From contig JAKOVT010000063.1 in the NCBI GenBank assembly GCA_029781935.1, forward strand, positions 1-64,000: a DNA stretch of 64,000 bases, read 5' to 3'. The notes beneath the pieces were generated by a model that saw nothing but the letters and a program-made list of their open reading frames with translations, ran no database searches and was not told the origin of the DNA. Each line of letters starts with the position of its first letter. Within the stretch, counting starts at the first letter, position 1. Position numbers and translations under genes: made by a program. This document shows, one piece after another, positions 14,820 to 53,562 of the stretch. Source of the stretch: Actinomycetes bacterium (GTDB taxonomy: Bacteria; Actinomycetota; Actinomycetes; S36-B12; CAIYMF01).

Positions 14820-14840
14820 GGATCTCATACTGTCTCATCT

Positions 14841-16126: not shown

Positions 16127-16135
16127 GGAGGGTCC

Positions 16136-17320: not shown

Positions 17321-17323
17321 GGC

Positions 17324-33074: not shown

Positions 33075-34450
33075 CCGCCGCCCCGGACAACGCCGCCACC
33101 ATCCGTCCCCGCGAGCGCGACGCCATCGTCCAGGCCCTGCGCGCCGGTGTCGTGCCCCGCGTCGGCCAGCAGCACATCCAGGTCGGGCGTGCCGAGGAGG
33201 TGCGCGCGCTCGTCTCCGACATCGAGCGCATCGCCGACGGCGGGTCGGCGTTCCGCCTCACCATCGGCGAGTACGGGTCGGGCAAGACGTTCTTCCTCAA
33301 CCTGGTCCGCTCCATCGCCCTCGAGCGCAAGCTCGTCACCGTCCACGCCGACCTCTCGCCCGACCGACGCCTGCATGCCACCGGCGGCCAGGCCCGCTCG
33401 CTGTACGCCGAGCTGATGAGCAACATGGCCACCCGCGCCAAGCCCGAAGGCGGCGCGATGGGCAGCGTCGTCGAGCGGTTCATCTCCTCCGCCCTGACCG
33501 AGGCGCGCGAGTCCGGTCAGACGCCCGAGCACGTCATCCGTGCGCGGCTGCGCGACCTCTCGGAGATGACCGGCGGCTACGACTTCGCCGAGGTCATCGC
33601 GGCCTACTGGCGCGGCCACGACAGCGGCAACGAGCAGCTGCAGAGCGACGCCGTCCGCTGGCTGCGCGGGGAGTTCTCCACCCGCACCGACGCCCGCAAC
33701 GCGCTCGGCGTGCGCACCATCGTCGACGACGCGTCCTTCTACGACCAGCTCAAGCTCCTCGCCCGGTTCGTCACCATGGCCGGGTTCAACGGCCTGCTCG
33801 TCTGCCTCGACGAGATGGTGAACCTCTACAAGCTCGCCAACACGCAGGCCCGCAGCGCCAACTACGAGCAGATCCTGCGCATCCTCAACGACAGCCTGCA
33901 GGGCAGCGCCGCCCACCTCGGCTTCGTGCTCGGCGGCACCCCCGACTTCCTGCTCGACACCCGCCGCGGCCTGTACTCCTACGCGGCCCTGCAGTCCCGC
34001 CTGGCGGAGAACGCGTACGCCACTGGCGGCCTCGTCGACTACTCCGGTCCCGTGCTGAACCTGGCCAACCTCAGCCAGGAGGACATGTACCTGCTGCTCG
34101 GCCGGCTCCGCCACGTGTTCGCCGCCGGCGACCCGTCGGCCTACCTCGTCCCCGACGAGGCGCTGACCGCGTTCATGAACCACTGCTCGAGCCGCGTCGG
34201 CGACGCCTACTTCCGCACCCCGCGCACCACCATCAAGGAGTTCGTCAACCTCCTCGCCGTCCTCGACCAGAACCCGGGAACCGACTGGAACGCCCTCATC
34301 GGAACCGTCGAGCTCGCCCCCGAGACCAACCCCGACCTGCTGCCGCTCCCCACCGACGCCGAGCCCGACCCGACGTCGACCGCCACCTACCTACCGCCGC
34401 CCGTCGACCAGGGAGGCGCCGGCGATGACCTCGCTACCTTCCGGCTCTGA
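33071..34450 (+). CDS. BrxD/DUF2791-type P-loop ATPase (Shango SngB-like)
   Basis: A 459-residue AAA+ ATPase. It has RERDAIVQALRAGVVPRVG at the N terminus, Walker A GEYGSGKTFFLNLV (about residue 72), Walker B GLLVCLDEMVNL (about 250) and a sensor-like FVLGGTPDF. This is the DUF2791 type, also used as BrxD in BREX. It overlaps the TerB gene by ATGA and the helicase gene by 26 bp, so the three are tightly coupled. It probably loads or switches the helicase on foreign DNA; the target signal is unknown. Confidence 0.8.
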   Translation: MTAAPDNAATIRPRERDAIVQALRAGVVPRVGQQHIQVGRAEEVRALVSDIERIADGGSAFRLTIGEYGSGKTFFLNLVRSIALERKLVTVHADLSPDRRLHATGGQARSLYAELMSNMATRAKPEGGAMGSVVERFISSALTEARESGQTPEHVIRARLRDLSEMTGGYDFAEVIAAYWRGHDSGNEQLQSDAVRWLRGEFSTRTDARNALGVRTIVDDASFYDQLKLLARFVTMAGFNGLLVCLDEMVNLYKLANTQARSANYEQILRILNDSLQGSAAHLGFVLGGTPDFLLDTRRGLYSYAALQSRLAENAYATGGLVDYSGPVLNLANLSQEDMYLLLGRLRHVFAAGDPSAYLVPDEALTAFMNHCSSRVGDAYFRTPRTTIKEFVNLLAVLDQNPGTDWNALIGTVELAPETNPDLLPLPTDAEPDPTSTATYLPPPVDQGGAGDDLATFRL

Positions 34451-36764
34451 CACCGGCGCCGCCTCCGCGGCGTTCGAGCGCCTCCACCCACGCATCCAGC
34501 GGTGGGTGTGGGAGCAGCAGTGGACCGAGCTGCGCGACATCCAGGAGCGCGCCGCCGAACCCGTCCTCGCCGGCGACCGCGACGTCGTCATCTCCGCCGC
34601 GACCGCCTCCGGCAAGACCGAGGCCGCGTTCCTGTCCATCTGCTCGGTCCTGCTGCGCGACCGCGAAGCCCGCGAGCACACCCTCGGGCCCGGCGACCGC
34701 ACCGGGGTCCTGCCCGCGGGCGGGGTGCAGGTGCTGTACGTCAGCCCGCTCAAGGCGCTCATCAACGACCAGTTCGGCCGCCTCGACGCCATGTGCGAGG
34801 CTCTCGACATCCCCGTCCACCGCTGGCACGGGGATGTCGCCGGGTCCCGGAAGTCCAAGGTCGTCCGCGAGCCCGACGGCATCCTGCTCATCACACCCGA
34901 GTCCCTCGAAGCGCTGCTCATCACCCACGGGACCCACGTGAGCCGCATCTTCGCCGGGCTGCGCTACGTCGTCATCGACGAGCTCCACGCCTTCCTTGGC
35001 AGCGAGCGCGGCGCGCAGCTGCAGTCGCTGCTCAACCGGGTGGAGCTCGCCGTCCGTCGCCGCGTCCCGCGGATCGGGCTGTCGGCGACGCTGGGCGACA
35101 TGGCGGCCGCCGCCGAGCACCTGCGCCCCGGCGGCGGTCACCAGGTCACCATCCTCGTCTCGACCGACGGGTCCCAGGAGCTGCGGCTTCAGTTGCGCGG
35201 CTACGAGAAGACCGACCCGTCCCTGGCCAAGCCGCACGGCGAGGCCACCGACGCCGACGGGGAGACCGTCCCCGCCGACGACGCCGACACCCCCACCGAC
35301 GCCGTCACCATCGCCGACGACCTGTTCGCCCTGCTGCGCGGGACCGACAACCTCGTGTTCGCCAACTCCCGCCGCCAGGTCGAGGAGTACACCGACCTGC
35401 TCGCGCGCCGCTGCGCGGCCGCCCGCGTCCCGAACGAGTTCGTGCCCCACCACGGCAGTTTGTCCAAGGACCTGCGCGAGGACGCCGAAGCCCGCCTCAA
35501 GGACCGCTCGGTCCCGGTGACGGCCATCTGCACCTCGACCCTCGAGCTCGGCATCGACATCGGGTCGGTCACCTCCATCGCGCAGGTCGGCGCGCCGCAC
35601 ACCGTTGCCAGCCTGCGTCAGCGCCTCGGACGATCCGGACGGCGCGGCGACCCCGCCATCCTGCGGCTGTTCATCAGCGAGGAGTCCGTCTCGCCGCAGA
35701 CCGCACCGCCGGACGCCTTGCGCGCCCAACTCGTCCAGTCCATCGCGATGGTCGAGCTGCTCCTGCAGCGGTGGAACGAGGCCCCGGACTCGGGCGGCCT
35801 GCACCTGTCCACCCTGATCCAGCAGCTCCTATCCCTCATCGCCCAGCACGGCGGCGTCACCCCGCGCGAGGCGTACACCACCCTGTGCTCCCACGGCCCG
35901 TTCTCCGGCGTCTCCACCGACATGTTCGCCGCCCTGCTGCGCGCTCTGGCCGGCGAGCCAGGCAAGTACAACGACATGCTCATGCAGGCCAGCGATGGGC
36001 TGCTCCTCCTCGGCACGGCGGGGGAGCGGCTCGTCGGCCACTACTCGTTCTACGCGGCGTTCCGCTCTCCGCAGGAGTACCGCCTGGTCGCCCACGGCCG
36101 CCAGCTCGGCATGCTGCCCATCGACTACCCGGTGCTCATCGGGTCGCTGATCATCTTCGGCGGCCGTCGCTGGAAGGTCGTCGACGTCGACGACCGCGCC
36201 AAGCTCATCGAGCTTGAGCGCTCGTCGGGCGGGAAGCCGCCGGCGTTCACCGGCGACGGGGGTGCGCAGGTCGCCGACCGCGTCCGGCAGGAGATGCTCG
36301 CGCTGTACTGCCGCGACGAGGTCCCCGCCTACCTGGACGCGTCCGCCGTCCGCCTCCTCGGCCAGGGGCGCGCGAACTTCACCGCGTACGGCCTCGCCGA
36401 CAACCGGCTGCTGCGCTTGGGATCCGACACCCTGCTGTTCGGGTGGATGGGGGACCGCATCATGGGCACGCTCGCGGTCGCGCTGACCAGTGCCGGTGGC
36501 GATGTCTCGAACGACGGCCTATGCCTGACCGTCGCCGGCATGGCACCCGCTGACGTGTTCGAGATGCTCGACGAGCTCGCCGCTCAGGGCCCGCCCGATC
36601 CGGTGGGGCTCGCGGCGATCGTCCCGACGAAGGTCGCGGAGAAGCACGACGAGCTCCTGACCGAGCCTCTGCTGAACGCCGGCTACGCCTCCCGCAGCCT
36701 GGACGTGCTCGGCGCGTGGAAGCTCATCGACGATCTGCTGGCCACGCAGGTCTTGCGGGACTGA
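34425..36764 (+). CDS. Lhr/BrxHI-like superfamily 2 helicase (Shango SngC-like)
   Basis: A 779-residue helicase. Motif I is SAATASGKTEAAF, motif Ia VLYVSPLKALINDQ, motif II VVIDELHAF, motif III LSATLGD, motif IV region LVFANSRRQVEEY, motif V STLELGIDIG and motif VI RLGRSGRRGDP. The DELH box and long C-terminal domains mark the Lhr family. With the DUF2791 ATPase it mirrors BrxD-BrxHI of BREX, but the TerB partner points to Shango. The ATG lies within the ATPase 3' end, so translation is coupled. Confidence 0.85.
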   Translation: MTSLPSGSDTGAASAAFERLHPRIQRWVWEQQWTELRDIQERAAEPVLAGDRDVVISAATASGKTEAAFLSICSVLLRDREAREHTLGPGDRTGVLPAGGVQVLYVSPLKALINDQFGRLDAMCEALDIPVHRWHGDVAGSRKSKVVREPDGILLITPESLEALLITHGTHVSRIFAGLRYVVIDELHAFLGSERGAQLQSLLNRVELAVRRRVPRIGLSATLGDMAAAAEHLRPGGGHQVTILVSTDGSQELRLQLRGYEKTDPSLAKPHGEATDADGETVPADDADTPTDAVTIADDLFALLRGTDNLVFANSRRQVEEYTDLLARRCAAARVPNEFVPHHGSLSKDLREDAEARLKDRSVPVTAICTSTLELGIDIGSVTSIAQVGAPHTVASLRQRLGRSGRRGDPAILRLFISEESVSPQTAPPDALRAQLVQSIAMVELLLQRWNEAPDSGGLHLSTLIQQLLSLIAQHGGVTPREAYTTLCSHGPFSGVSTDMFAALLRALAGEPGKYNDMLMQASDGLLLLGTAGERLVGHYSFYAAFRSPQEYRLVAHGRQLGMLPIDYPVLIGSLIIFGGRRWKVVDVDDRAKLIELERSSGGKPPAFTGDGGAQVADRVRQEMLALYCRDEVPAYLDASAVRLLGQGRANFTAYGLADNRLLRLGSDTLLFGWMGDRIMGTLAVALTSAGGDVSNDGLCLTVAGMAPADVFEMLDELAAQGPPDPVGLAAIVPTKVAEKHDELLTEPLLNAGYASRSLDVLGAWKLIDDLLATQVLRD

Positions 36765-36915: not shown

Positions 36916-38022
36916 GTGTCTAGCGTGCGCATCCTGCACCTGGCCGACGTCCATCTGGACACGCCGTTCACGTGGGCAGGGCACGGGCAGGGCCGCGCCC
37001 GCCGGCAAGCGATCCGCGACGCGCTCCGCGCCGCGTTCGACCTGGCCGCCGCTGAACGCGTCGACGCCGTCACGATCGCCGGCGACCTGTACGAGCACGA
37101 CCGCGTCACCGACGACACCGGCGCGTTCCTCGCCGACCTCGCCGCCTCCATCGCCCCAATCTCGGTCCTGCTCGCCCCCGGCAACCACGACTGGTACGGG
37201 CCGTCGTCGCTGTACGCGCGGACCGTGTGGCCCGCCAACGTGCACGTGTTCACCACCGCGCGCCTCACCCCCGTCACCCTCACCGACGGGTTCACCGCCT
37301 GGGGCGCCGCGCACACCGGCCCGGCCAACACCCCCGGGTTCCTCGACGGGTTCACCGTCGACCGCGGCGGCATCCACGTCGGGGTGTTCCACGGCGCCGA
37401 ACGGTCCGCGCTGCCGCGCGAAGGCGTCGAGAAGCTCCCGCACGCCCCGTTCCACGCCTCCCAGATCCGCACGTCCGGCCTGCATCACGCGCTCGTCGGC
37501 CACCTGCACACCCCCGACGACGCAGCCCACCACACCTACCCCGGCAACCCCGAGCCGCTCACGTTCGGCGAGACCGGACAGCGCGCCGCCGTCCTGGTCG
37601 ACGTCGCCGACGACGGGACCGTGCGCCGCACCCGCCACGTCGTGTCCCGCACCGCGATCCACGACGTCACCGTCGACATCACCGGCCTGACCCACACCGA
37701 CGCGGTCCGCACGGCCGTCGCCGACCAGACCGCCGGGCTGACCGGCGTCGTGCGCATCACCGTCACCGGCGAGGTCGACCCGCGCCTGGACGTCGCTCCC
37801 GACCGGTGGAAGCCCGACGCCGCCGGCATCGACGCGCTCATCCTGCGGGTCGGGGACCTGCGGCCCGCGCTCGACCTCGACGCGATCGCGACCGAGGCGA
37901 CCGTGCGCGGCCAGTTCGTCCGCGACGTCCTCGCCGCCTCCCTCGACCCGGACGTGCAGCGCCGCGTCCTCGGGACCGGGCTGCGCGCCCTGGCCGGCGA
38001 CCCGGACCTGGAGGTGCGCTGA
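36916..38022 (+). CDS. YhaO/SbcD-like DNA exonuclease subunit
   Basis: A 368-residue metallophosphatase starting at GTG 36916. The Mre11/SbcD motifs are complete: ILHLADVHLDTPF, TIAGDLYEHDR, LLAPGNHDWYG, GVFHGAE and LVGHLHTPD. The C-terminal 100 residues match the length of YhaO rather than the longer SbcD. It ends 1 bp before the paired ATPase gene. The pair would process DNA ends or hairpins. It begins 151 bp after the helicase, so it may be the fourth gene of the cassette or a separate unit. Confidence 0.85.
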   Translation: MSSVRILHLADVHLDTPFTWAGHGQGRARRQAIRDALRAAFDLAAAERVDAVTIAGDLYEHDRVTDDTGAFLADLAASIAPISVLLAPGNHDWYGPSSLYARTVWPANVHVFTTARLTPVTLTDGFTAWGAAHTGPANTPGFLDGFTVDRGGIHVGVFHGAERSALPREGVEKLPHAPFHASQIRTSGLHHALVGHLHTPDDAAHHTYPGNPEPLTFGETGQRAAVLVDVADDGTVRRTRHVVSRTAIHDVTVDITGLTHTDAVRTAVADQTAGLTGVVRITVTGEVDPRLDVAPDRWKPDAAGIDALILRVGDLRPALDLDAIATEATVRGQFVRDVLAASLDPDVQRRVLGTGLRALAGDPDLEVR

Positions 38023-38023
38023 C

Positions 38024-40756
38024 ATGCGCGTCACCGAGGTCACCGCGCACGCGTTCGGCCCCATCGTCGGGCAGACGCTGCAGTTCGACGACGGGCTGAC
38101 CGTCGTCGTCGGCGGGAACGAGTCCGCGAAGTCGTCCTGGCACGCCGCCGTGTACGCCGCCATCTGCGGCCGCCGCCGCGGGAAGGGCGCCACCAACGCC
38201 GTCGACGCCCGCTTCGCCGACCTGCACCGCCCGTGGGACCGGGAGGAGTGGAAGGTCACCGCCCGCCTGCGCCTGGACGACGGGACCCTGCTCGACGTCG
38301 TGCAGGACCTCGCCGGCAAGGTCAACTGCCGCATCGTGGAGCTGCCGCTGGGCACCGACCGGTCCAACGAGCTCACCTACGACGGGTCCGTCGACGGGTC
38401 CCGCCTCGTCGGCCTGAACCGCAAGGCGTTCGCCGCGACCGCGTGCGTCGCCCAGACCGACCTGCTCGGCCTGCTCGACAACGCCGGCGCCCTGCAGGAG
38501 ATGCTGTCCAAGGCCGCCACGTCCGCCGACGCGGACGAGTCGACCGCCCGCGCGCTGTCCCTGATCGACAAGTTCAAGTCCGAGCACGTCGGCCTGGACC
38601 GGTCCAACTCCAGCCGGCCGCTGCGGGCCGCGCTCGACGCGGTCGAGAACGCGACCGCCGCGCTGCGGGACGCCGAGGCCGCCCGCGCCGACCTCGAGGA
38701 CCGCATCGCCGCCGCCGGCCGGCTCGCCGCTGCGGCCGCCGCCGCGCACGCCGACCACGACTACCACCGGGCCGCCGCCCTGGCCGCGACCGCGGCCGAG
38801 CTCACCGACCGGGCCGCGAAGGCGGCCGCCCTGGCCGACCGGCTCGGCCCCGACCGGCCGGCCGCTGCCGGGTCGCGCGCGGGGCTGGTGCAGGCGGTCA
38901 CCGCCGCCGTGTCCGCGTGGCGGACCCGGCCGACCCCGGTCACGCCGACCGACGACGTCGACGACCTCGCCCGGCGGCTCGACGACCTGCCGGCCCTGCC
39001 CGACCACGACACCGCTCCCGCCGCCGCGGTCAAGCAGGCCGCCACCGCCTACCAGCAGCAGGTCGCGCTGCTGACCGCGCACGACCGCAAGCCGGAACGC
39101 TCGATGATCGTCCCGCCGGTCACCGGGCCGACCAGCGCGCAGCTGAAGACCCTGGCCGGCGACCTGTCCCAGCTCCCGGCCGCTGCCCCTGCGGCCACGT
39201 CGACCGTCACCACGGCACCGGCCCGCACGCCCGGGCTCGCCGCCGCCGGGCTCGGCGTCGTCATCGCGCTCGCCGGGATCGTGCTGTCGATCCCCGCCCT
39301 CACTAGTGTCGGCGCGCTGCTCGCCGTCGGCGGGCTCGCGTGGGCGTTCACCCGCAAGCCGACCTCCACCACAGTCACCGACCCGCACGCCGGCCGCGCC
39401 GCCGCCGACCTCGCATCCCGCCGGTCCGCGTTGGAGTCGACCGCCGCGTCCTACGGCGTCCCGCTCGACATGCCGGCGCTCCTCGCCGCGATCACCGCCG
39501 CCGACGACGTCGAGAAGAAGGCCGCCGCCCGCGCCTCCTGGGTCGCCGTCCGCGAGCAGCTGGTGGGCGATGTCGACGCGGCCGCCGCGCTGCTCGCCGA
39601 CGCGCTCACGGGCCGCGGCCACCCGTGCCAGCCGTCGGACGCCGCCGCCGGATGGGACGCGTACGAGGCCGCGTGCACCGCTGCCGCCGCCCAGCTGGCC
39701 GCCGCCGGTCGCCGGGCCGCGCTCCAGGAGCGCCTGAACGCCGCCGAAGGCGCCCGGTCCCGGTACGACCAGGCGGTGCAGGCCGGACGTGACGCCGCCG
39801 ACGCGCTGCGGGCCGCCGCCCGGCAGGCCGCCGCCGTCCTGCCCGCCGACATCGCCGCCCTCGCCGACGACCCCGGCAGCGACCCCGACCGTCTCGCCGG
39901 GGCGCTCGACGCGTGGACCGCGCAGGTCGCCGCCGACGACGAGGCCGCCGCCCGCACCGCGGAGGAGTGGACGACGCTGACCGGCCTGCTCGGCACCGAC
40001 ACCCTCGAGCAGCTGCAGGCCCGAGCCCGCGCAGCGCAGGCAGCGGCCGACGCCGCGGCGGCCGGCCTGGACCCGGTCCGGCTCGCGGCGACCCCGGTCG
40101 TCGACCCGGCCGAGCTCGCGGTCCTCGCGGCCGACGCCGCGAACGCCGACGGGGAGGCGCGGGAGAACGCCGGGAAGGTCGCCGAGTTCGCCGCGTCGCT
40201 GCCCGACGTCGCCGCCGCGGAGGAGGCCCTCGCCGACGCGACCGCCGAGCTGGCCCGGGTCCGGTCGCTCGAGAGCGTCCTGGACCAGACCCGCGCGTTC
40301 ATGGCCGCCGCGCAGGAACGGGTCCACAAGGACATCGCGCCGGCGCTGCAGGCCCGCCTGCAGACGTGGCTGCCGGTCATCACTTCCGGCCGGTACACCG
40401 AGGCCAGCGTCAACCCGCAGACCCTCGCCGTGCAGGTCCGCGGCGCGTCCGGGGTGTGGCGTCAGGCGGCGCTGCTGTCGCACGGGACCGCGGAGCAGGT
40501 GTACCTGCTGCTGCGGCTCGCGCTCGTCGAGCACCTCACCGCCGGGCACGACACCTGCCCGCTGCTGCTCGACGACGTCACCGTCCACGCCGACACCGCC
40601 CGCACCCGCGAGGTCCTCACCCTGCTCGGGCAGGTCGCGATGCAGCGGCAGATCGTCCTGTTCACCCAGCAGGACATGGTCGCCGACTGGGCGCGCGCCA
40701 ACCTCGGCGGCGTCGTCGGCAAGGTCATCGAGCTCCGCGACCCGGTCCCAGCATGA
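38024..40756 (+). CDS. YhaN/SbcC-like membrane-associated ATPase with a variant Walker A
   Basis: A 910-residue Rad50-type ATPase with Ala-rich coiled coils. The P-loop region reads VVVGGNESAKSSWHAA (about residues 28-41): the usual Gly before Lys is Ala. A Q-loop-like VAQTDLLGLL follows. The ATPase C-half has LSHGTAEQVYLLLRLALVE (signature) and CPLLLDDVTVHAD (Walker B). In the hinge (about 402-444) two hydrophobic helices replace a zinc hook (LAAAGLGVVIALAGIVLSIP and SVGALLAVGGLAWAF), as in Bacillus YhaN. With the preceding nuclease it would form a membrane-tethered SbcCD-like complex. Confidence 0.82.
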   Translation: MRVTEVTAHAFGPIVGQTLQFDDGLTVVVGGNESAKSSWHAAVYAAICGRRRGKGATNAVDARFADLHRPWDREEWKVTARLRLDDGTLLDVVQDLAGKVNCRIVELPLGTDRSNELTYDGSVDGSRLVGLNRKAFAATACVAQTDLLGLLDNAGALQEMLSKAATSADADESTARALSLIDKFKSEHVGLDRSNSSRPLRAALDAVENATAALRDAEAARADLEDRIAAAGRLAAAAAAAHADHDYHRAAALAATAAELTDRAAKAAALADRLGPDRPAAAGSRAGLVQAVTAAVSAWRTRPTPVTPTDDVDDLARRLDDLPALPDHDTAPAAAVKQAATAYQQQVALLTAHDRKPERSMIVPPVTGPTSAQLKTLAGDLSQLPAAAPAATSTVTTAPARTPGLAAAGLGVVIALAGIVLSIPALTSVGALLAVGGLAWAFTRKPTSTTVTDPHAGRAAADLASRRSALESTAASYGVPLDMPALLAAITAADDVEKKAAARASWVAVREQLVGDVDAAAALLADALTGRGHPCQPSDAAAGWDAYEAACTAAAAQLAAAGRRAALQERLNAAEGARSRYDQAVQAGRDAADALRAAARQAAAVLPADIAALADDPGSDPDRLAGALDAWTAQVAADDEAAARTAEEWTTLTGLLGTDTLEQLQARARAAQAAADAAAAGLDPVRLAATPVVDPAELAVLAADAANADGEARENAGKVAEFAASLPDVAAAEEALADATAELARVRSLESVLDQTRAFMAAAQERVHKDIAPALQARLQTWLPVITSGRYTEASVNPQTLAVQVRGASGVWRQAALLSHGTAEQVYLLLRLALVEHLTAGHDTCPLLLDDVTVHADTARTREVLTLLGQVAMQRQIVLFTQQDMVADWARANLGGVVGKVIELRDPVPA

Positions 40757-41217: not shown

Positions 41218-44200
41218 ATGGCGTATGTGCGCATGTCCGACAGGGAGGCTAGGGCCGAGCTGGGCCGCATGGTGGATGCACTCCGACGCACCTCGGACGG
41301 CGAGATGGCTGAGGTGCTTGCGGCGCTCGGGCCGTCCATCACGGAGGAGGGCGAACGAGGAGACGGGGACCGTTCAGCCGCCGGGCTTGTGCCGGTGACC
41401 TTGGCTGACCTCGATCCCCGCGCGAAGCCGAAGTTGTTGGCCTACGTCGGTGTGCGCGGCAAGGTACTCGTCGTCATCGTTCCCAGCAGCGCCATCGAGG
41501 ACAACCTCCCAGTCCTGCAGGGCGATCGCACGAAGACCGAACGCAACGCCGCCACCGAGTTGATCCTTGAGGCCGTCAACGTCCTGCCCCGCCTCGAGTT
41601 CCTCTGCACGCCTCGACTCGAACGCCTGTTCCGCACACCGAAGGGGCAGGGCGCCATCCTCGACGCATGCCGGGACGCCGACGTGCTCCTGGTCATCGAG
41701 GGCGTTCCGCGCGACCTCGCAGACACCGGCCAGATGATGACCACCTCTGTCGAGGGAATGGTCAAGGGCGACGCCGACGCCATCGCGCGCAAGAAGAACA
41801 TCATCGGGGGTCGAGTCGGCATCGTTGCGGCCGACTCCAAGGAGCACTCACAGCGTGATTTCGGTTACCACCAGTGTCCCTTGGGCTACCGACCCGAGCT
41901 CCGCACCGGTCCTGACGGCGTGACCGAAGTGGAGCGCGGCTCCATCCTCCTCAACGAGGAGCATGCGCCTGCCCTCAGGCGCATGTGGACGGAGTTCGCC
42001 AAGGGGACCCCAGTCGCCCACATCGCGGAGCTGGACGTCGTCAAGGACCTTCCGGCTCGCGACCGCAGTGGTCGGACGTTGCGAGACCTCACGAAGGGTA
42101 ACCGCCACAACGCCGTGTACCGGTTCTTCACCAGGACAAATCTCGAGTTGTACCGAGACGGGACATGGTGGCTGGAACGCAAGACCGGCGCTCCACTGAA
42201 GCAGGTCTCCGGATTCCCCCTCGTGAAGAGGGGCAAGAAGCGCGTTGCGACTGTCAAGGGATCCCTGCCTGTCCTTATGGTCGATGGTCTGCCCTGGGGT
42301 GTGCCAGACGAGTCCTGGAACTTGGCGGAGAAGCGGCTTCGGGACTCTGCCGACGAGACACCGGCGCAGCGTGGGGGCAAGCATGGCGAGGCTCTGCTCG
42401 CCTCCTCGGCTCCTTTCACGATGGACGGGGATCTGTACCGCGTCGTGAAGGAGCACAGCACGTTTCAGCTGCGTCGGATCGACGGTGGTGCGGGTGGTCG
42501 GTGGGATCCGAGCCAGTCTGTTCTGGTAGCGGCGGCCAACTGCCGCACCTTCTGGCAGTCCTTCGGACGTGCGCTCGGGGAGGGTTTGGTCGAGGTGGCC
42601 GGGCGGCTGAAGCCACTGACCTACGGCTCGGTGCGCGCGACCACTCCGGAAGGCATACCCGATTCCGTCGAGCGTCTCCTGGCGGACGCAGCCCAGCACG
42701 CGTCCGAGGCAGACGAGTGCGCCGAGAACGCGCGCGTGGCAAGGGCCGAGGGTAACGACCTCGTTCGTCAGCATTGGGAGCGCCAGCAGAACGGGTTCCT
42801 CCTCGAGGCGGAACGGCTCACGAAGGAAGCCGAAGCCGCACGTGAAGCATGGCTCGCCGCTCAGACCAAGACACCCGGGAACGTCCTCGACGTCGCTCAC
42901 CCGCTGGCTCTGGCCGCGGCGCTGGCGAAGTGGGACGGGTCGTACGACCCGGAGCTGCAGGCGGCAGTTCGTGCTCTGAACGTCCCGCCGAGCTTGACCG
43001 CCGAACTGACAGTAGCCGGCGAACTCCAGGTGACGTGCCGCGTCGAACTGGCATCGCTGGACGGAGGCAGCCTCCTTCTGGACATCACCTTCCGAGTTGC
43101 CAACACCAGCAACCAGCGAGACCTCGGACCGGACGCCGATCGCCTGGTGGCCCTCTGGGCCAGCACCTCTCTGACCATCCCAGAGCTGGCTGAAGCGACC
43201 GGCTACGCGCCGCGCACAGTCCGCAAGACCGTCTACTCCTGGCTCAAGCGCAACGGTGTGCCGGTCTTGGCCCTCGCACTCACGCTCTGCCCCGTCCAGG
43301 CCACGCGTGCTGCTGTCGCGTCGCATCTGCGTCCCGATCTGGTGGAGCCGCCGACGGTGGACGAGAGGGGCAATCCGGTCTCCGATGTCACACGGAAGTT
43401 CCTCGTCGCCATCTACCTCGCTGAGTCGCCCGGCGCCTTCCTCAAGGGCTGGACGCCTGCCGACCAGAGCGACGAGAGGCGAGTGGTGATGGCTCTCCGC
43501 CACGCCAATGCCGCCTGTGACGTGTCCCTGCTCGCCGCGGCAGCAGGCGTCGGCGTCGACTGGTCGCCCAGTAAGGACCGACCGCGCCCGTTCACCCTGG
43601 TCGGTGGCCGCCGGCGCCGACTCCTGGAGTGTCCCCATGAGGACTGTTCGTCAACCGTCGCCGATCACGTCCTCTACACACCCGAGACGGCGGTCGCTGG
43701 CGTGCTGTGTCGAACCTGCCGACGACTTCCGATCAAGGAGCTTGCCGACGTGGTGCTGCCGGTCGAGTACCTCGCTCTCTGGAATCGGGATGTTCACGCC
43801 GGGCGGGCTGACACAGTTCTGTTGTCCGCGGAAGAGATCAGCCCAGTTGATCTCGAGCTCGCCATGCGCGCAGGGAGGCTGGTGCGCATCCGAGAGGCCG
43901 CAAGGTTGGTCGGCCTGTCGGAAGACGCGTTCCGTGACCGCATCACGCGCGGCGAGCAGCCGGTGCACGTCACAGCCGGATCCAGTCGGTTCTTCGATCC
44001 GCACTTGCTGAAGGATGTCAGCGGGCCGCGGAAGGGCCCGCCGACGGTGCCCGCTGGATGGCTCTCCGTGGCACAGGTCGCACGACGTCTCGGGGTGCCC
44101 GAGTACCGGGTGCGCGAGTACTGCCAGGAAGGTCTCCTGGCGTTCAAGAAGGTCAGGGGGCGTATCTGCATCTCTCCCGCTGCGATGGCGGCAGTTGTCG

Positions 44201-44397
44201 TGCCGGAAGGAGACCTCCTGAGCTCGCTCTCCGTCGTCCAACTGGCGCGAGAGGCCGGCAAGACCAGGGGCCAGGTCGACTACGCGATGCAGCGCGGCTA
44301 CATCGCCACGGTCTACACGAGCCAGGGAACGCCGATGATCTCACGAGACGAGGCGAACCGATGGCTGTTGCGCATCAACGCTGCAGCGAAGGGCTAG
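41218..44397 (+). CDS. Giant serine-recombinase-like protein with C-terminal HTH repeats
   Basis: A 1059-residue protein (a GTG at 41131 would add 29). Residues 73-225 resemble a large serine recombinase catalytic region: LLAYVGVRGK aligns with the YxRxS strand but lacks its Arg and Ser. RLERLFRTPKGQGAIL aligns with the RLxR helix, and IARKKNIIGGRVGI then FGYHQCPLGYRPE with the helix and GY motif before the DNA-binding domain. An intact AYVRMS lies at residues 2-7. The C-terminal half has a zinc ribbon (CPHEDC...CRTC, 803-835) and at least four helix-turn-helix units (about 651, 888, 946 and 1003). It may be an active or dead recombinase turned regulator. Confidence 0.5.
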   Translation: MAYVRMSDREARAELGRMVDALRRTSDGEMAEVLAALGPSITEEGERGDGDRSAAGLVPVTLADLDPRAKPKLLAYVGVRGKVLVVIVPSSAIEDNLPVLQGDRTKTERNAATELILEAVNVLPRLEFLCTPRLERLFRTPKGQGAILDACRDADVLLVIEGVPRDLADTGQMMTTSVEGMVKGDADAIARKKNIIGGRVGIVAADSKEHSQRDFGYHQCPLGYRPELRTGPDGVTEVERGSILLNEEHAPALRRMWTEFAKGTPVAHIAELDVVKDLPARDRSGRTLRDLTKGNRHNAVYRFFTRTNLELYRDGTWWLERKTGAPLKQVSGFPLVKRGKKRVATVKGSLPVLMVDGLPWGVPDESWNLAEKRLRDSADETPAQRGGKHGEALLASSAPFTMDGDLYRVVKEHSTFQLRRIDGGAGGRWDPSQSVLVAAANCRTFWQSFGRALGEGLVEVAGRLKPLTYGSVRATTPEGIPDSVERLLADAAQHASEADECAENARVARAEGNDLVRQHWERQQNGFLLEAERLTKEAEAAREAWLAAQTKTPGNVLDVAHPLALAAALAKWDGSYDPELQAAVRALNVPPSLTAELTVAGELQVTCRVELASLDGGSLLLDITFRVANTSNQRDLGPDADRLVALWASTSLTIPELAEATGYAPRTVRKTVYSWLKRNGVPVLALALTLCPVQATRAAVASHLRPDLVEPPTVDERGNPVSDVTRKFLVAIYLAESPGAFLKGWTPADQSDERRVVMALRHANAACDVSLLAAAAGVGVDWSPSKDRPRPFTLVGGRRRRLLECPHEDCSSTVADHVLYTPETAVAGVLCRTCRRLPIKELADVVLPVEYLALWNRDVHAGRADTVLLSAEEISPVDLELAMRAGRLVRIREAARLVGLSEDAFRDRITRGEQPVHVTAGSSRFFDPHLLKDVSGPRKGPPTVPAGWLSVAQVARRLGVPEYRVREYCQEGLLAFKKVRGRICISPAAMAAVVVPEGDLLSSLSVVQLAREAGKTRGQVDYAMQRGYIATVYTSQGTPMISRDEANRWLLRINAAAKG

Positions 44398-44837: not shown

Positions 44838-45343
44838 ATCCCGATCGGTGCGCCGACGGCCGATCCTGTCAGTCGCCCGGTCGGCGGCACGTTGCTTCTG
44901 CCATCGGTACGGGTTGGTGGTGCCCGCAGGCATCGAAGGGCTACTCGCCGATAGCCCGGCAGTCGGACCTCAGACGGGCCACAACAACGGACTGTCTACT
45001 CATCTCGTTCACTGGGACCACCGTGAGCCCCGTCCTGCACCACAAGCCCACGCAGGTCCGAGCGAGCCTTCCGCCCTGATGGTCACGCCCCAGCCTCTGA
45101 AGACGTTGTTGTGGCGGCTAGGACTTGACGCTGACCGTCCTGACCAGCGGCGAGGCTGCAGGAGTCCGTGCTCGAGCCTCCGATCCGCGGTAGGGGCTGG
45201 CAACTGGGCCAGCTGACCCGGGGGAGAGGGGTCCGGGAACGCACGGCACGGGTACCGCCTTGACCTCTAGTCCCGGCGGCTGTCGGACGCCGACCTTAGA
45301 GTGGCTGCGTCTGGACGGCCTGCGGACGAGGGGACCAACGGGG
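44838..45343. other. Intergenic region before the giant ATPase gene
   Basis: About 400-500 bp with lower GC and no supported gene. It likely carries the promoters of the divergent zinc-type gene and the giant ATPase gene. Confidence 0.45.
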
Positions 45344-48300
45344 ATGAGCAAGACCGGCCACAGGACTCGCATCAAGGGGCCCATCGGCGCGCCGCACTCC
45401 TGCGACGATCTGTACGTAGACGGGCACGACTGCCCGGCCCGCCTCTTCGGGCACGCCGCAGACCATCTCGCCGACGACGACATCGTCGAAGCGTTCGCGC
45501 TCCTGGCCCACGGAATCAGCACCGACGACCTGGCCGCCGCCCTGTCCCTCATGCCGCGCGACTACCGCTCCAGCGTCCTGTCGCACTTCAACGTCCCCCC
45601 GGTGCGCAAGGTCGGCAGCGCCAGCCTCGAGCAGCTCCACCGTCGCGCCACCACAGGTGCCCACCAGCCTCGCTGCTTGATCGAACGGATAGCGCCGCCG
45701 GTGTACATGGCGCTCACGAACCTCGACATGCTGGGAGAGGACGAGCTGGTCGCGGCGCTCGACCCGACCCTGGAGCCGAATCGGGACTCCTTTCCGTTCC
45801 TGCTTTCGGCGCTGGGCTCCCGCCAGCTGCCGCCCACCGTCGTGCGGGCAGCCCTGGCCGGGACCCTCCTCGACGACAGCGTGCTGTCCCCGCTGGCCAT
45901 CGGATGGCTAGCGGAGGACCCCGGGCCCCTCCCCGACCAGCTCGTCGCCAGGCTCGCCGCTGCCTGGGCTGCGGTCCGTAGCGACCATCCGTCGCTGCCG
46001 CCGTCGCTGCGCCCCCTGTACGACCTCGTCCACAAGGACCACAACGACGCCCCGGTCGCACGCACCGCAGCGCCGGAGCCCGCCGCCGAGGCAGCGACCG
46101 CACCGCCGGAAGGAAGGGCCGAAGTGACCGAGCTCCCCGACGTGACGACGCCGGTCGCCCCCGAACGGGTCGAGGCTGCCCCGTCGCTGCCCGATGCTCT
46201 CGGGGACATGCTGGCCGCCGTCGAGGGGGCCGTCGACGGCATCGCCGACCGCCTCTCCGTCCTGGCCGCCCAGCTCGACGACGGCGTCTACCCGGACAGC
46301 ATCGCCGACGACGCCGCAGCCCTCACCGCGCTGGCCGTCGAGCTGGCTGGCGTCCGCGGGACCGGTGTCGTGCTGCGCACCAGCGCGGACATCGCCAGCC
46401 TCCGCGCGCGGCTGTCCGAGGGCTCCGAGCGTGCCCGCCGTCTCGCCCGGGCAGCGAGGATCGAGGGCCCCGAGAAGGTGGAGGACCTCCTGGCCGAGGT
46501 GCGCACCAACGCCCACGACCTCGCCGAGCACGCCGACGCCGTCCTCGCGCTCGTCGACCTCGTCGACCACGTCGCCGCCCGACCGCAGGACTCCGACGGC
46601 CTCGACGACCGGCACGCCGCCTTCGTCGGCGCCCGACCTGCCCACTGGGACCCGCTCACCCTGTACGCGGTCACCGGACGGCTCTCCCTGCCGGACGGCT
46701 CCCAGGAGCCGGTCATCGCGGCTGCGGAGGACGGGTCCGGGGAGCTCGACGATCGGTCCGCATCGGGGTCTGCCGGGGACGAGCCGGGGACGGCGCAGCC
46801 CGAAGCAGCGCCCGCACCGGCTCTCGACGCCATCCTCGACGACCTGGCCAGCTGGGCCGCAGCCCCGAACCCGTCGCCTGTGGGCGAGGCTCAGGCCCCG
46901 ACCCAGCCCAAGCCCGAGCCGGAGCCGACGGTCGAGCCGGAGCCCGAGCCCGAGCCGGAGACCCCGGCGCCCTCGCGTGCGGAGACGCCCGGCGAGACGA
47001 CGCCGGCCGACAGCCAGCCGCGGGATGGGACCGCCGCCACCGGCGCCGAGCAGGCGCCGACCCCCGCCGCCACCGACGACGGCACCACGACCACCCCCGC
47101 CGAGGCCGCCGCCGGGGACGACGCGCTCGCCGCCCGGATGATGGACGAAGGACGCGTCGGTCTCGCCGCCTGGCTCGCCGACGCGACCGGTGACCCCGCG
47201 CTCGCGACCGCCCGCCGCATGGCAGCCCTCGCCGGCCAGGTCCGCTCCCTGACCGGGCGCTGCGCCGGTGCCGTCGCCACCCTCGCCAGCACCCTCGACC
47301 TCGACGACCTCCCCGACGACCCGCGCACCCGGCTGCTGCTCGCAGCAGCAGCGGCCAGAGCCGGCATCGTCGCCCCGGGCCCGTCCACCACCGCCGCCCT
47401 CACCACCGTCGCACCCGCACTGGCCCCCACCTACCCGCGCACCGCTGCCATGCTGTCCGCATACGCCCAGGCCGCCGCCACCGGCGTCCTCATCCTCCCC
47501 GTCGCCGACACCGCCCGAGCCGCCAACGAGGCCGCCACCTCCCGCGCCGAGTCCTCCGCCGCAGCCCGACGCCTGCTCGTCGAGGGCCCCAGCCGCACCG
47601 TGCGCTACCAGCTCGCCACCGCCGTATGGACCACCTGGATCCGCCCCGACGGGCTCCTCGGCCGCGCCGTGTCCGTCGCAGCCGACGACGACGACGACAG
47701 AATCGACATCGTCGACGAGGTCCTCGACAAGCTCGGCGACGACCACCGCATCGACCGCGAGGTCGACCTCGCAGCCACCGCGCTGCGCCGATCGAGCAGC
47801 CGCAGCGAGGCGATCATCTCCCGCGCCCGCGAGAAGCTCCTCGCCCTCATCGCGGAGGCGCTCGACATCCTGCGCCAGTGGCGCGACGACGTCCGCGAGT
47901 GCGAGGTCGTCGAGCAGGCGTCGCCACGGTCTTGGCAGGCGGGCCCGCTCGCCGAGCTGCGCAAGGCGGTCGCCGAGCACACCGACGCCAGCGCTGCGGA
48001 GACCGACGGCGACGGTGACGTCGCCGAGGCCGCACGCCTCATCGCCCAGGCCGGCGCCATCCTTGCCGGCACGGCCGTCGAGGGCGACGAGCCCGACCCC
48101 GACCGCATCCTCAACGGCGAGCTCCTCGCCATCCCCGAGCTCCCGCTCGAGAGCACCCGCCTGGCCCCCGTCCGAGCCGCCACCCTCGACGAGGTCGCCT
48201 CCGCCGCGCAATGCCCGCCCGACCCGCTCACCTGGTACGAGCGGCGCGCGGCCGTCGACGACCACCAGGCGACCGCCGTCCTGCTCACGATCATCCGCGA

Positions 48301-51300
48301 GACCGACCCCGACACCGCCGCGCGCCTTGCCGCATCCCGGGAGCAGGCCGTCGCCGGCGCCGTCGCCCGTCGCGAGACCGAGCACGCCCGTCTTTCGTCC
48401 GAGATCGACTCCGCCCTGCGCCACGGCCTCCTCGACGACGCCGAATGGGGCGTGCTCACCGCCAGGCTCGCAGCGCTCGCAGCCCCCGGTCGACTCGACT
48501 TCTCCACCGTCGCCGCCGGCCACGCCGCCCTCGCGTCCGCGCTCGACGTCGGCCGCGACCGCGCCCGCGACCGCGCCCGCGCCCGCCTCGAGGATAAGGC
48601 AGCTGCCGACCAGCGCGTCGCCGCCATCCGCGACCGGCTTGCCGAGCGCATCGCCGACGACGACCTCACCGCCTTCGAGGAGTACCTCGCCCTGGCAACC
48701 ACCGGCCAGGATCTGCCCGCACCGCGTAGCACCACCGACCACCTCGCCCGCTTCTTCCCCTCGTTCCCCCGCACGGTGCTCGCCGCAAGGACCGGCCGGT
48801 CCCGCAGCAGCGTCGAGATCATCCGCGCCCTCGAGAGCGCCCTGGCCGCACCCGCCACCGCCCACGGCTCCGACGCGCTCTCCGAGCTCCTCACCAGCGC
48901 CGGGATCGCCCTGGCCGCCCTCCCCGAAGCCCGGCGCGTCAACGCCGCCAGTGCCCTTGCCAAGTGGCGCGGCCTGTCGCAGGGACCCAAGAGCGGCCAG
49001 CCCGAGACCGCGCTGCACGCCGTCCTCGCCCTCGCCGGGCTGTCCTTCACCTCCGTCGAGGCGCTCGCCGAGGGCCGCGCCCGCGACCGCCAGATGTTCG
49101 AGCTGCGCGGGGTCTCTGGGTCCGGCCGGGCGATGCTGCCCGCGTTCGGCAGCGCCATGAGCCCCACCGGCGACACCCTGCGCGTCGCGATGGTGTGGGG
49201 CGCCCCCGACCCCGTCACGCTCGTCGACGGATACAGCGGCCAGCCGACCGACCGCACGCTGCTCACCCTGTACTTCGGCACCCTCGGCGTCGACGAGCGC
49301 CGAATGCTCGCCACCGCTGCCCGCCGCCGCCGCCGCCCCCCCGTCGTCGTGTTCGATGACGCCTCCCTCATGTACCTGGCCTGCCAGGACACCCACACGC
49401 GAGAGGCTGCGATCGCGGTGCTCGCCCCGTTCTCCGGGGTCGCGCCGTTCACCCCGCTCATGGCCGGCGACGTCCCCCGCGAGATGTTCTACGGGCGCAC
49501 CGAGGAGCTCGCCTCGGTCATCGACCCGCACGGCTCCTGCTTCGTGTCCGGCGGCCGACAGCTGGGCAAGTCAGCGCTGCTGCGCGCCGCCGCCCGGCGT
49601 TTCGACGACGGCTCCACCAGGCGCGCCGCCGTCGCCAGCATCTTCAGCATCGGGAGGTCCGCCGAGACCGACCGGCTGTGGCCGACTCTGTGGGCCCAGC
49701 TGGCCGACATGGGCGTCCTGGACGGCGTGTGCCCGCTGGACGACCCCGCTCAGGCGTTCCGCGACGCGGTCGCGACCTGGCTGGCCGCAGACCCGCACCG
49801 CCAGTTGCTGCTCCTTCTCGACGAGGCCGACGCGTTCCTCGACGAGGACTCCCGCGACGGGCACTTCCCGTGCGTGCACCTGTTCCGCCAGATGATGGAG
49901 GAGTCCGGCCGACGGGTGAAGATCGTGTTCGCCGGCCTGCACCAGACCGCCCGGTTCGAGCAGCTGGGCAATCAGCCGCTCGCCCACTTCGGCAGCCCCG
50001 TCTCCGTCGGCCCGCTCAACGCCCAGGCCGCCTACGACCTGCTCACCGAGCCGATGCGGACGCTGGGGTACCGGTTCGCCGACGAGAGCGTCCCCAGCCG
50101 CGTCCTGGCACTGGCGAACAACTCGCCCGCCCTGATCCAGCTGTTCGGCGCCGCGCTGCTCGAGCGGCTGATGAAGGTCCCCATGCCCGTCGACGGGCCG
50201 CCGGTCACCGTCACCAGCGACGACATCGAGCAGGTCTGGGCCGACCAGGAGCTCATGGACGACTTCCGCAGCCGCTTCGAATGGACCCTCAACCTCGACC
50301 CGCGCTACAAGGTGATCGCCTACCGCATCGCGTACGGGGCGCTGGCCGACGGGCCCGATACCACCATCCGCTCCGCGGACCTGCGCGCGTTCTGCTCCGA
50401 GCTGTGGCCCACCGGCTTCGCCACCTGCACGACAGACGAGTTCCGCGGCCTGCTCGGCGAGTGCGTCGAGCTCGGCGTGCTCACCAAGGTCGGCGACGGC
50501 TACCGGCTGCGGTCCCCGAACGTGCTGCGGCTTCTCGGCACCCTCGACGAGGTCGAGGCCGTGCTGCTCGAGGCGCAGAACTACCCGGCGCCTGCGGTGT
50601 TCGACGCCGCCGCCTACCGTCCGCCGTTCGCCGGCAGCGTGCGCCGCAGCCCCCTGTCGGACGCGCAGTCCCGCGAGATCCTCGCCCGCCGCGACCAGAT
50701 CCACGTCGTCTCCGGCTCCGCCGCGCTGCGCCTCGAGCGCGTCCCGAAGGCCCTGGAGGAGGCCGCCGCCCAGACCGGGCACGTCACCGTCCACCACGAC
50801 GGCCGCAACGGCAAGCTCGCAGCGCTGGCCGCACGCGCCGCGGCCGGCGACGGGCACCACGTGCTCGTCGTCGACCTCGCGCGCACCGGGACCGCCGACG
50901 CCGACGCGGTCGTCGCCGAGGCCGTCTCCGTGCTCGCCGACCCGCACCGGGGGACCCTGTCCGTGGTGCTGCTCGCCGACCCGGTCCACGCCCCGCTGTG
51001 GCTGGCCGCCGGGCGCGGCGACAGCCCTGCATCCCTGGTCGAGCTCGGCCGTCTCGACGCGACAGCGGTCCGGCTCTGGATGGCCGAGGCCCCGCTGCCG
51101 TTCCAGAATGGGACCTCCCAGGCAGGCTTGGTCGCCGCGACCGGAGGATGGCCGCTTCTGCTCGACCGTGTCGTCGAACCGATCTCGGAGGGCCTGGCGT
51201 CCCCCGACGCGGAGCTCGCCACGCTGTCGTCCCGCCTGGACGACGCCCAGTACGCGGGCGACGTGCTTACGGCCGCCGGGCTGACCGGCGACGGCCCGCT

Positions 51301-51535
51301 CGCGCAGGCGTGGAAGGCCCTCGTCGAGCTCGACGAGCCAGCCAGCGCCGTCGAGCTGGCCGCCCTGCTGGAGACCTACGACGAGCTGACGCCTTCGCGC
51401 CTGGCCGGCGCCGGCTACCGCAGCGTCTCCGACGTCGTCGAGGCCCTGCGGATCGCCGGGGCGCTCGCCGTCGACGCCACGGCCCGGTTGTCCTGCGAGC
51501 CGGTGCTGGCGCGTGTCACCCGGACCGCGTCGTGA
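45344..51535 (+). CDS. 2063-residue multidomain AAA/STAND-type ATPase, unrecognised family
   Basis: The start ATG follows GGGG and an in-frame upstream ATG is unsupported. Residues 1-240 are helical with a SCDDLYVDGHDCP motif. An acidic Pro/Glu linker (about 520-550, EPTVEPEPEPEPETPAP) is followed by about 750 residues of Ala/Glu/Arg-rich helical repeats. The segment VVVFDDASLMYLACQ near 1340 leads into VPREMFYGRTEEL and an ATPase with Walker A SGGRQLGKSALLRAAA (about 1403) and Walker B LLLLLDEADAFLDED (about 1488). Winged-helix and helical parts complete the chain. The stop overlaps the beta-CASP nuclease start. It resembles a sensor/switch ATPase gating that nuclease. Confidence 0.7.
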   Translation: MSKTGHRTRIKGPIGAPHSCDDLYVDGHDCPARLFGHAADHLADDDIVEAFALLAHGISTDDLAAALSLMPRDYRSSVLSHFNVPPVRKVGSASLEQLHRRATTGAHQPRCLIERIAPPVYMALTNLDMLGEDELVAALDPTLEPNRDSFPFLLSALGSRQLPPTVVRAALAGTLLDDSVLSPLAIGWLAEDPGPLPDQLVARLAAAWAAVRSDHPSLPPSLRPLYDLVHKDHNDAPVARTAAPEPAAEAATAPPEGRAEVTELPDVTTPVAPERVEAAPSLPDALGDMLAAVEGAVDGIADRLSVLAAQLDDGVYPDSIADDAAALTALAVELAGVRGTGVVLRTSADIASLRARLSEGSERARRLARAARIEGPEKVEDLLAEVRTNAHDLAEHADAVLALVDLVDHVAARPQDSDGLDDRHAAFVGARPAHWDPLTLYAVTGRLSLPDGSQEPVIAAAEDGSGELDDRSASGSAGDEPGTAQPEAAPAPALDAILDDLASWAAAPNPSPVGEAQAPTQPKPEPEPTVEPEPEPEPETPAPSRAETPGETTPADSQPRDGTAATGAEQAPTPAATDDGTTTTPAEAAAGDDALAARMMDEGRVGLAAWLADATGDPALATARRMAALAGQVRSLTGRCAGAVATLASTLDLDDLPDDPRTRLLLAAAAARAGIVAPGPSTTAALTTVAPALAPTYPRTAAMLSAYAQAAATGVLILPVADTARAANEAATSRAESSAAARRLLVEGPSRTVRYQLATAVWTTWIRPDGLLGRAVSVAADDDDDRIDIVDEVLDKLGDDHRIDREVDLAATALRRSSSRSEAIISRAREKLLALIAEALDILRQWRDDVRECEVVEQASPRSWQAGPLAELRKAVAEHTDASAAETDGDGDVAEAARLIAQAGAILAGTAVEGDEPDPDRILNGELLAIPELPLESTRLAPVRAATLDEVASAAQCPPDPLTWYERRAAVDDHQATAVLLTIIRETDPDTAARLAASREQAVAGAVARRETEHARLSSEIDSALRHGLLDDAEWGVLTARLAALAAPGRLDFSTVAAGHAALASALDVGRDRARDRARARLEDKAAADQRVAAIRDRLAERIADDDLTAFEEYLALATTGQDLPAPRSTTDHLARFFPSFPRTVLAARTGRSRSSVEIIRALESALAAPATAHGSDALSELLTSAGIALAALPEARRVNAASALAKWRGLSQGPKSGQPETALHAVLALAGLSFTSVEALAEGRARDRQMFELRGVSGSGRAMLPAFGSAMSPTGDTLRVAMVWGAPDPVTLVDGYSGQPTDRTLLTLYFGTLGVDERRMLATAARRRRRPPVVVFDDASLMYLACQDTHTREAAIAVLAPFSGVAPFTPLMAGDVPREMFYGRTEELASVIDPHGSCFVSGGRQLGKSALLRAAARRFDDGSTRRAAVASIFSIGRSAETDRLWPTLWAQLADMGVLDGVCPLDDPAQAFRDAVATWLAADPHRQLLLLLDEADAFLDEDSRDGHFPCVHLFRQMMEESGRRVKIVFAGLHQTARFEQLGNQPLAHFGSPVSVGPLNAQAAYDLLTEPMRTLGYRFADESVPSRVLALANNSPALIQLFGAALLERLMKVPMPVDGPPVTVTSDDIEQVWADQELMDDFRSRFEWTLNLDPRYKVIAYRIAYGALADGPDTTIRSADLRAFCSELWPTGFATCTTDEFRGLLGECVELGVLTKVGDGYRLRSPNVLRLLGTLDEVEAVLLEAQNYPAPAVFDAAAYRPPFAGSVRRSPLSDAQSREILARRDQIHVVSGSAALRLERVPKALEEAAAQTGHVTVHHDGRNGKLAALAARAAAGDGHHVLVVDLARTGTADADAVVAEAVSVLADPHRGTLSVVLLADPVHAPLWLAAGRGDSPASLVELGRLDATAVRLWMAEAPLPFQNGTSQAGLVAATGGWPLLLDRVVEPISEGLASPDAELATLSSRLDDAQYAGDVLTAAGLTGDGPLAQAWKALVELDEPASAVELAALLETYDELTPSRLAGAGYRSVSDVVEALRIAGALAVDATARLSCEPVLARVTRTAS

Positions 51536-53562
51536 GCAGGCGCAGCAGCGACCGGGCGCTGGTCGTCCGGGCGCTCGGCCCCGCGCTCGCGATGCTCGAG
51601 GAGCGCCTGCCCGGCATCACCTCCGACGTCCCGGCGCTGCTCGCCCACCGCGGCGGCTCCGTCGTCGACGCCGCTGCCGCCGCCGGGCTGGTCTCAGGAG
51701 CCGAGCTGGTCCGGCTGCGCAAGCTCGTCGCCGACGACGGTCTGCGCGCATCGGTCCTCCTGCCCGCCCTCGCCGCCCCGTCCGAAGCTGCTGAACCGTT
51801 AGCGCCGCCACCCGCCGCCCCGGCGTGCACCGACACGACGCATCGGCGGCTGCTCGCCAAGGTCGACGACCTCACCGCCAAGCGCGACCTGTGGAAGGGG
51901 CGGTACGACAACCTCGTCGCCGAGCGCGACGGGCTGATGTCGGAGTCCGCGACCCTCAACGCCACGATCTCGGCGCTGCAGGCCACCCTCGACGAGCGGG
52001 ACCGCCTCCTGCGCCTGGCCGACCAGCGCGCTTCCAGCGTCTCCGACGTCGCCCGCACGCTGAGCGACCTGCTCTCCGGCGCTGGCGGCGACCCGCGCGA
52101 GATGGAGCAGCGCGCGCTCGGCCAGGCCGACGACCCCGTTGCTGCCTCGCTCGAACCGACCGGGGTGACCCGCGAGCAGCTCGCCGCCGCCCTCGACGGC
52201 CTCGTCGCAGGGCCCCCCGCGCCCGTCGTCGTCGTCCGCGAACGGACGTTGCGCGTGACCCCGCTCGGCGGCGGGACCGAGATCGGCGGCTCCGCCATCC
52301 TCGTCGAGGCCGGCGGCACCCGGGTCCTCGTCGACGCCGGCATCCGCCCGCAAGGCGGAACCAACGCCGAGCTGGCGCCGCCGCAGATCGCCGCCGCGCT
52401 CGACGGCCCGCTCGACGCCATCGTCGTGACCCACGCGCACAACGACCACGGCGGATACATCCCCGCGCTGCTCGCGCAGCGTCCCGGGGTCCCCGTCCTC
52501 GCCAGCCCCGGCACCGCCGCCCTCCTGCCGACCATGTGGCGGGACTCGGCGAAGGTGTACGCCAACCGCACCGAGACCGAGCAGCGGTACGGCCTCGCCC
52601 GCGACGTCCTGTACGGGCCCGTCGAGGTCGCCCTCGCCGAGAACTGCCTGCGCAGCGTCCCGCTCGGCCGCCCCACCGCCGTCGGTCAGCTCACCATCGA
52701 GCTCTTCGCCGCCGGGCACATCGTCGGCGCGGCGGGTGTCGTCGTGGCCGCGGGCGGCGAGCGCGTCGTTGTGACCGGCGACATCGCCGGCTTCCCCCAG
52801 GCGTCCGTCGGCGGCTACGCGCTGCCCGAGTCGGCCGTCGGCGCGGATCTGCTCGTGCTCGAGACGACGTACTGCGGGGAGGCCCACCGCCGCCGCGAGG
52901 ACGAGGTCGCCCGCCTGATCGCGACCATCGCCGACGTCGTGTCCGCCGATGGGCGGGTCCTCGTGCCCGCGTTCGCCCTCGGGCGCGCGCAGGAGGTCGC
53001 GCTGAGCATCCACCAGCACCTGCCCGACGTGCCCGTGCTCGTCGACGGGATGGCCCGCGAGGTCTCGACGCTGGTCACCGCCCACACCGGGACCGCGGTG
53101 ATCACCGGGAACATCTCACGAGTCGGGGACCGGGTCGCCGCCATGCGTAACTTCCGCAGCGGCGTCGTCATCTCGACCTCCGGCATGCTCACCGGCGGAC
53201 CCGCCGTGGCCTGGGCCCACGAGATTCTGCCCGACCCCGCGGGCGCCCTGCTGCTGTGCGGCTACCAGGACGAGGAGTCCCCCGGCCGCGCGCTGCTCGA
53301 GCTGGCCGACTCCGCCGGGGACCGCAAGCTCCGCCTGCCCGGCCGGGACCGCGACACGGTCGTCGACGTGCGCGCTCGCGTGGACCGGTTCGGACTCTCG
53401 GCCCATGCCGACCGCGACGGGCTGCGGCGGATCGTCGACGAGGTCTCGCCGTCAGCCGTCATGCTCGTCCACGGGTACCCGGCCAAGCAGCGGCAGTTCG
53501 GCGAGCTCCTTGCGATGCACGGGCACGCGGTCGTCCCCACCGGGCCGTGGGGCGCCGACTAG
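51532..53562 (+). CDS. Coiled-coil plus metallo-beta-lactamase/beta-CASP nuclease
   Basis: A 676-residue protein whose GTG overlaps the stop of the giant ATPase. Residues 1-230 are helical with a coiled coil (LLAKVDDLTAKRDLWKGRYD onward). From about 240 comes a CPSF73/RNase-J-like nuclease: TPLGGGTEIGGSAILVE, the metal motif VVTHAHNDHGGY (about 298-309), ETTYCGEAH, VLVPAFALGRAQEV, ISTSGMLTGGPA, the RMMBL motif FGLSAHADRDGL (about 620) and VHGYP. All catalytic His/Asp are present. Housekeeping relatives lack the N-terminal coiled coil, so it is probably a dedicated effector that cuts RNA or DNA when the ATPase is triggered. Confidence 0.8.
   Translation: MSRRSSDRALVVRALGPALAMLEERLPGITSDVPALLAHRGGSVVDAAAAAGLVSGAELVRLRKLVADDGLRASVLLPALAAPSEAAEPLAPPPAAPACTDTTHRRLLAKVDDLTAKRDLWKGRYDNLVAERDGLMSESATLNATISALQATLDERDRLLRLADQRASSVSDVARTLSDLLSGAGGDPREMEQRALGQADDPVAASLEPTGVTREQLAAALDGLVAGPPAPVVVVRERTLRVTPLGGGTEIGGSAILVEAGGTRVLVDAGIRPQGGTNAELAPPQIAAALDGPLDAIVVTHAHNDHGGYIPALLAQRPGVPVLASPGTAALLPTMWRDSAKVYANRTETEQRYGLARDVLYGPVEVALAENCLRSVPLGRPTAVGQLTIELFAAGHIVGAAGVVVAAGGERVVVTGDIAGFPQASVGGYALPESAVGADLLVLETTYCGEAHRRREDEVARLIATIADVVSADGRVLVPAFALGRAQEVALSIHQHLPDVPVLVDGMAREVSTLVTAHTGTAVITGNISRVGDRVAAMRNFRSGVVISTSGMLTGGPAVAWAHEILPDPAGALLLCGYQDEESPGRALLELADSAGDRKLRLPGRDRDTVVDVRARVDRFGLSAHADRDGLRRIVDEVSPSAVMLVHGYPAKQRQFGELLAMHGHAVVPTGPWGAD

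Follow-up and report, generated by a model that had tools for sequence, protein, structure and literature searches.

Results

At positions 41218 to 44397 of the window, the whole 64,000-nucleotide stretch of DNA analysed here, the forward strand carries a gene for a 1059 aa protein that starts at an ATG (a GTG at 41131 is an alternative start) and that we describe as derived from a large serine recombinase (LSR) and probably non-cleaving. The reading frame is real, as originally predicted, and its product is about twice as long as a usual LSR. On the same strand, the second half of a resolvase catalytic domain and the start of a recombinase domain are recognised at residues 125-271 (41590-42030), followed by a long helical, coiled-coil-like stretch at residues 482-550 (42661-42867), which is taken from a predicted model (pLDDT about 80) and a weak alignment with LSR coils. 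The several helix-turn-helix (HTH) units that had been foreseen are matched by HTH models: one at residues 640-682 (43135-43263; Pfam HTH_23, 1.3e-6) aligns in all relatives, another lies at about residues 881-909 (43858-43944; HTH_29, 2.7e-5, under that model's curated cut-off), and a MerR/excisionase-like unit occupies residues 948-990 (44059-44187; HTH_17, 5e-10; TIGR01764, 1.3e-7). The zinc ribbon, also anticipated, reads CPHEDC...CRTCRRLP at residues 805-838 (43630-43731), and its CPHxxC...CxxCRR pattern is the best-conserved signature of the family described below. In Pfam, PADLOC, NCBIfam and PHROGs the window protein matches HTH models and no recombinase model, and none of five relatives scanned against the Pfam Resolvase and Recombinase models matches them.

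The expected position beside defence genes is borne out by the upstream neighbour, a Shango system whose SngA, SngB and SngC genes lie on the forward strand at 30306-36764 (PADLOC, 4e-89, 2e-183, and 1e-277, respectively); the window protein matches none of these three PADLOC models. Directly downstream of Shango, an SbcD/SbcC-like pair (36916-40756) separates the system from our gene, and relatives of this pair are found in the same order on contigs without detectable Shango genes. A conserved Shango-SbcCD-recombinase operon was considered and rejected, as four relatives of the SbcCD-like pair, all on short contigs, show no SngA, SngB, SngC, or family gene. The window also holds a low-GC stretch at 9728-17953, in which an AbiEii-like ATPase, T5orf172, GmrSD, and a tyrosine integrase are encoded. 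At 45260-53562 a 2091 aa ATPase, whose relatives sit on Streptomyces and other plasmids, precedes a beta-CASP metallo-beta-lactamase.

Judged by its sequence, the window protein belongs to a rare, unnamed actinobacterial family, of which 11 full or near-full members were recovered; most of these are about 20-25% identical to it. Single-sequence searches of its own genome, its phylum and order, plasmids, phages, viral contigs, and 84,980 genomes returned HTH matches only, with no phage, plasmid, or viral-contig relative among them. Relatives came to light through an LSR profile, built from 25 LSRs that had been collected in the same phylum with PF07508. Against this profile, residues 60-480 of the window protein score 22.6 bits, with the match falling at residues 125-271; 2000 shuffles reach at most 5.0 bits, and a background of 797 real frames reaches at most 14.2 bits once LSRs and family members are set aside. 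Two higher-scoring frames in that background are Nocardioides relatives of the window protein (G787 and G855), 25-26% identical to it over nearly the full length; G787 has the C-terminal CPHxxC...CxxCRR ribbon, whereas in G855 a frameshift falls there. G1028 and two Aeromicrobium members came from a search of 200 genomes of the family to which these two genomes belong. When a DNA pattern written for the ribbon was run against the 84,980 genomes, it gave six matches, all of them family members (N. guangzhouensis, N. currus, AX2bis, zg-1230, Aeromicrobium Root472D3, and a partial copy in a metagenome-assembled genome); as this pattern misses variants whose first cysteine codon is TGT, the window's included, it is no full census. 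Further members are a second N. guangzhouensis copy, G760, and G532. Another N. guangzhouensis match (C100) lies inside a LuxR-like regulator; we attribute it to the HTH and do not count it as a member. A search of the openly accessible literature found no published description of such a family.

The 11-member family and LSRs align in hhalign with a probability of 97.8% and a score of 114, with 30 column-shuffled controls reaching at most 15.1, and in the reciprocal direction the family profile recovers two ordinary LSRs. Sequence homology to the catalytic and recombinase domains of LSRs is thus present over residues 125-281, and these comparisons indicate that it is real but remote. An LSR-like layout had been placed at residues 73-225; the likeness itself stands, and the significant match lies at residues 125-271. 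AlphaFold models of the window and N. guangzhouensis proteins, made from six-row alignments, have a mean pLDDT of 44-46, and Foldseek found no fold match for them at E <= 0.001, the matches listed being noise.

The family alignment points to a different active-site strand from those initially suggested. Window residues 85-92 (VVIVPSSA) align with FLRLSTSS in N. guangzhouensis, FCRITSSA in G760, FLNITLSS in other Nocardioides, and FLYLLTSA in Aeromicrobium. The nucleophile strand is therefore probably residues 85-91 (VVIVPSS, 41470-41490), at the Y-x-R-x-S-T-S position, and AYVGVRG, which had been read as the YxRxS strand, lies one strand earlier. Nor does AYVRMS at residues 2-7 (41221-41238) hold up as a separate intact motif: it has no counterpart in the relatives, where the aligned stretch reads, for example, MTLYTARKVYN, and a YxRxS string arises in 9% of shuffles of the window protein, so that we take it as a chance likeness. 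The nucleophile strand of gamma-delta resolvase is YARVSTSQ, which the N. guangzhouensis FLRLSTSS resembles in sequence. Only N. guangzhouensis keeps such an intact-like strand (F-L-R-L-S); the window protein reads V-V-I-V-P, with I87 and P89 as the equivalents of R8 and S10. Across the family R8 is kept in 2/11 members, S10 in 1/11, and the intact pair in 1/11. The R45 position is unconserved, and the distance to it from the nucleophile is about 20 residues, as compared with 35 in gamma-delta resolvase, the first catalytic half being shortened. Invariant in 11/11 members are S91, N110, R136, and R139, the last two lying in RLFR (residues 136-139, 41623-41634) and corresponding to the catalytic R68 and R71.

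Purifying selection acts on the family gene: dN/dS, calculated pair by pair, is 0.18 for an Aeromicrobium pair and 0.17, 0.21, and 0.31 for Nocardioides pairs. Across the remnant of the catalytic domain it falls to 0.10-0.14 in three of these four. In two Aeromicrobium genomes (L070 and L071) several proteins encoded upstream of the family gene are 100% identical, while the synonymous difference within the gene itself is 0.65 at the start of the gene and declines to 0.19 by its end, which suggests a mosaic produced by recombination.

Family members are physically linked to varied defence genes. A PADLOC-scoring gene lies near the family gene at 11/11 loci, a raw count with no background rate that is drawn from hand-chosen neighbours and from single matches rather than complete systems; we regard the association of the family with defence as suggestive. 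The neighbours include type IIG restriction, type III methylase, and E1-E2 genes, type I restriction, Dsr1, PDC-M19, and PDC-S48 genes, and further PDC-S48, HerA-like, and Orf5/HEC-06-like genes; they vary by genome, and no single defence gene is common to all loci. The weakest case is the C1 copy of N. guangzhouensis, whose sole such gene, HerA-like, is about 12 kb away. At six loci the family gene adjoins, in divergent orientation, a partner pair encoding a 120 aa protein and a 433 aa protein that combines a coil with a GDG...VVEAK nuclease-like part, and at four of these six, all in Nocardioides, a DUF3987 gene is also present. DUF3987 is a domain known from mobile elements. The cassettes of AX2bis and zg-1230 themselves include candidate defence genes. 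The 433 aa partner was seen once without the family (G712) and does not lie beside the window copy; a distant homologue (1.8e-9), a 453 aa protein with a coil and a PD-(D/E)xK-like part, is encoded at 62266-63627, 18 kb from the family gene.

Only weak two-copy repeats occur in the 40.7-46 kb interval, and none near 41 kb is convincing as an attachment-site pair. Since the genes on either side vary from genome to genome, no empty site was found.

Discussion

Here, we propose that the family is best explained as a recombinase-derived, non-cleaving, multi-domain DNA-binding protein that serves defence islands, a reading in which we have middling confidence. The residues needed for cutting are gone in nearly all relatives and the anti-phage neighbours are varied, so the protein probably binds or organises DNA rather than cutting it. 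An LSR ancestor would have given rise to a protein without canonical serine strand cleavage, whose remnant catalytic domain may serve in oligomerisation or DNA contact, and which would have been kept as a large DNA-binding protein through its recombinase domain, long coil, several HTHs, and CPHxxC/CxxCRR zinc ribbon. Such a protein would bind sites in or beside defence genes, most likely to control or organise those genes; for the window protein, we infer DNA binding and a regulatory or architectural role. The original prediction had offered, as one option, a dead recombinase with a new role in regulation or DNA targeting, and this fits the loss of the R8/S10 pair in 10/11 members, the purifying selection, and the retained HTHs and ribbon. 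Its other option, an integrase that brought the cassettes in, sits poorly with the lack of a canonical active site, of a convincing attachment pair near 41 kb, and of phage, plasmid, or viral-contig relatives in the searches made, and with the variation among neighbours.

What might argue for another role? The invariance of S91, N110, R136, and R139 exceeds what a wholly dead domain would require, which counts against a non-cleaving protein. Together with the F-x-R-x-S of N. guangzhouensis, the genome-to-genome variation of the adjoining cargo, and the DUF3987 genes of the four Nocardioides loci, it would suit a recombinase that is still active, its catalytic site rewired around S91 as nucleophile and the retained R136 and R139, and that would move or invert defence cargo. 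We consider this unlikely, since R8 is lost in 9/11 members and S10 in 10/11, R45 is unconserved, the segment between the nucleophile and R45 is shortened, and no convincing attachment repeats were found near 41 kb. It is similarly doubtful that the protein is a component of the defence systems themselves, such as a sensor or DNA-recognition subunit, rather than a regulator. The linkage to defence-type genes at 11 loci, the PD-(D/E)xK-like protein encoded by the conserved neighbour, and the candidate defence genes within the AX2bis and zg-1230 cassettes speak for such a subunit; however, the loci have no single defence gene in common, and Shango is complete without the family protein. A decaying integrase pseudogene, which could be read from the missing catalytic residues and the frameshifted G855 copy, is highly improbable: ten members have open frames of 1000-1150 codons, the ribbon cysteines are conserved, and a dN/dS of 0.17-0.31 argues against a pseudogene, so that the selection test largely refutes this explanation.

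Returning to the non-cleaving DNA-binding protein that we favour, its interest lies in what recombinases do near defence genes. One published account notes that they are often neighbours of anti-phage genes and describes what they do there as unknown (PMC12529663). A conserved family that lacks the cutting residues yet sits close to a wide range of unrelated defence genes gives a concrete example, open to testing, of how a recombinase scaffold may be reused around defence islands. More speculatively, this unnamed LSR-derived family could have a rewired resolvase pocket, marked by the invariant S91, N110, R136, and R139, and be the common factor of actinobacterial defence islands, often accompanied by the coil-plus-nuclease partner, that controls or shuffles interchangeable anti-phage systems.

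How does the family compare with known systems? Shango is the upstream neighbour in the window, where the window protein is no component of the system, and the relatives sit beside other systems. With MAD1 of MADS it has in common only a generic HTH: the PADLOC mad1 model matches residues 948-981 (8e-15), and the NCBIfam MAD1 model scores 12.9 bits, as compared with a cut-off of 80. In the order of its parts it resembles phiC31-type LSRs (Resolvase PF00239, Recombinase PF07508, zinc ribbon, and coiled coil), with which the window protein shares the succession of an RxxR-bearing second catalytic half, a recombinase-domain pattern, and a long coil. Unlike LSRs, it is without Y-x-R-x-S and a Pfam recombinase match, its first catalytic half is shortened, and there is no Cys4 ribbon between the recombinase domain and the coil (residues 311-480 include one cysteine); instead, it is extended at the C-terminus by about 400 residues, which carry HTHs and a ribbon of another kind.
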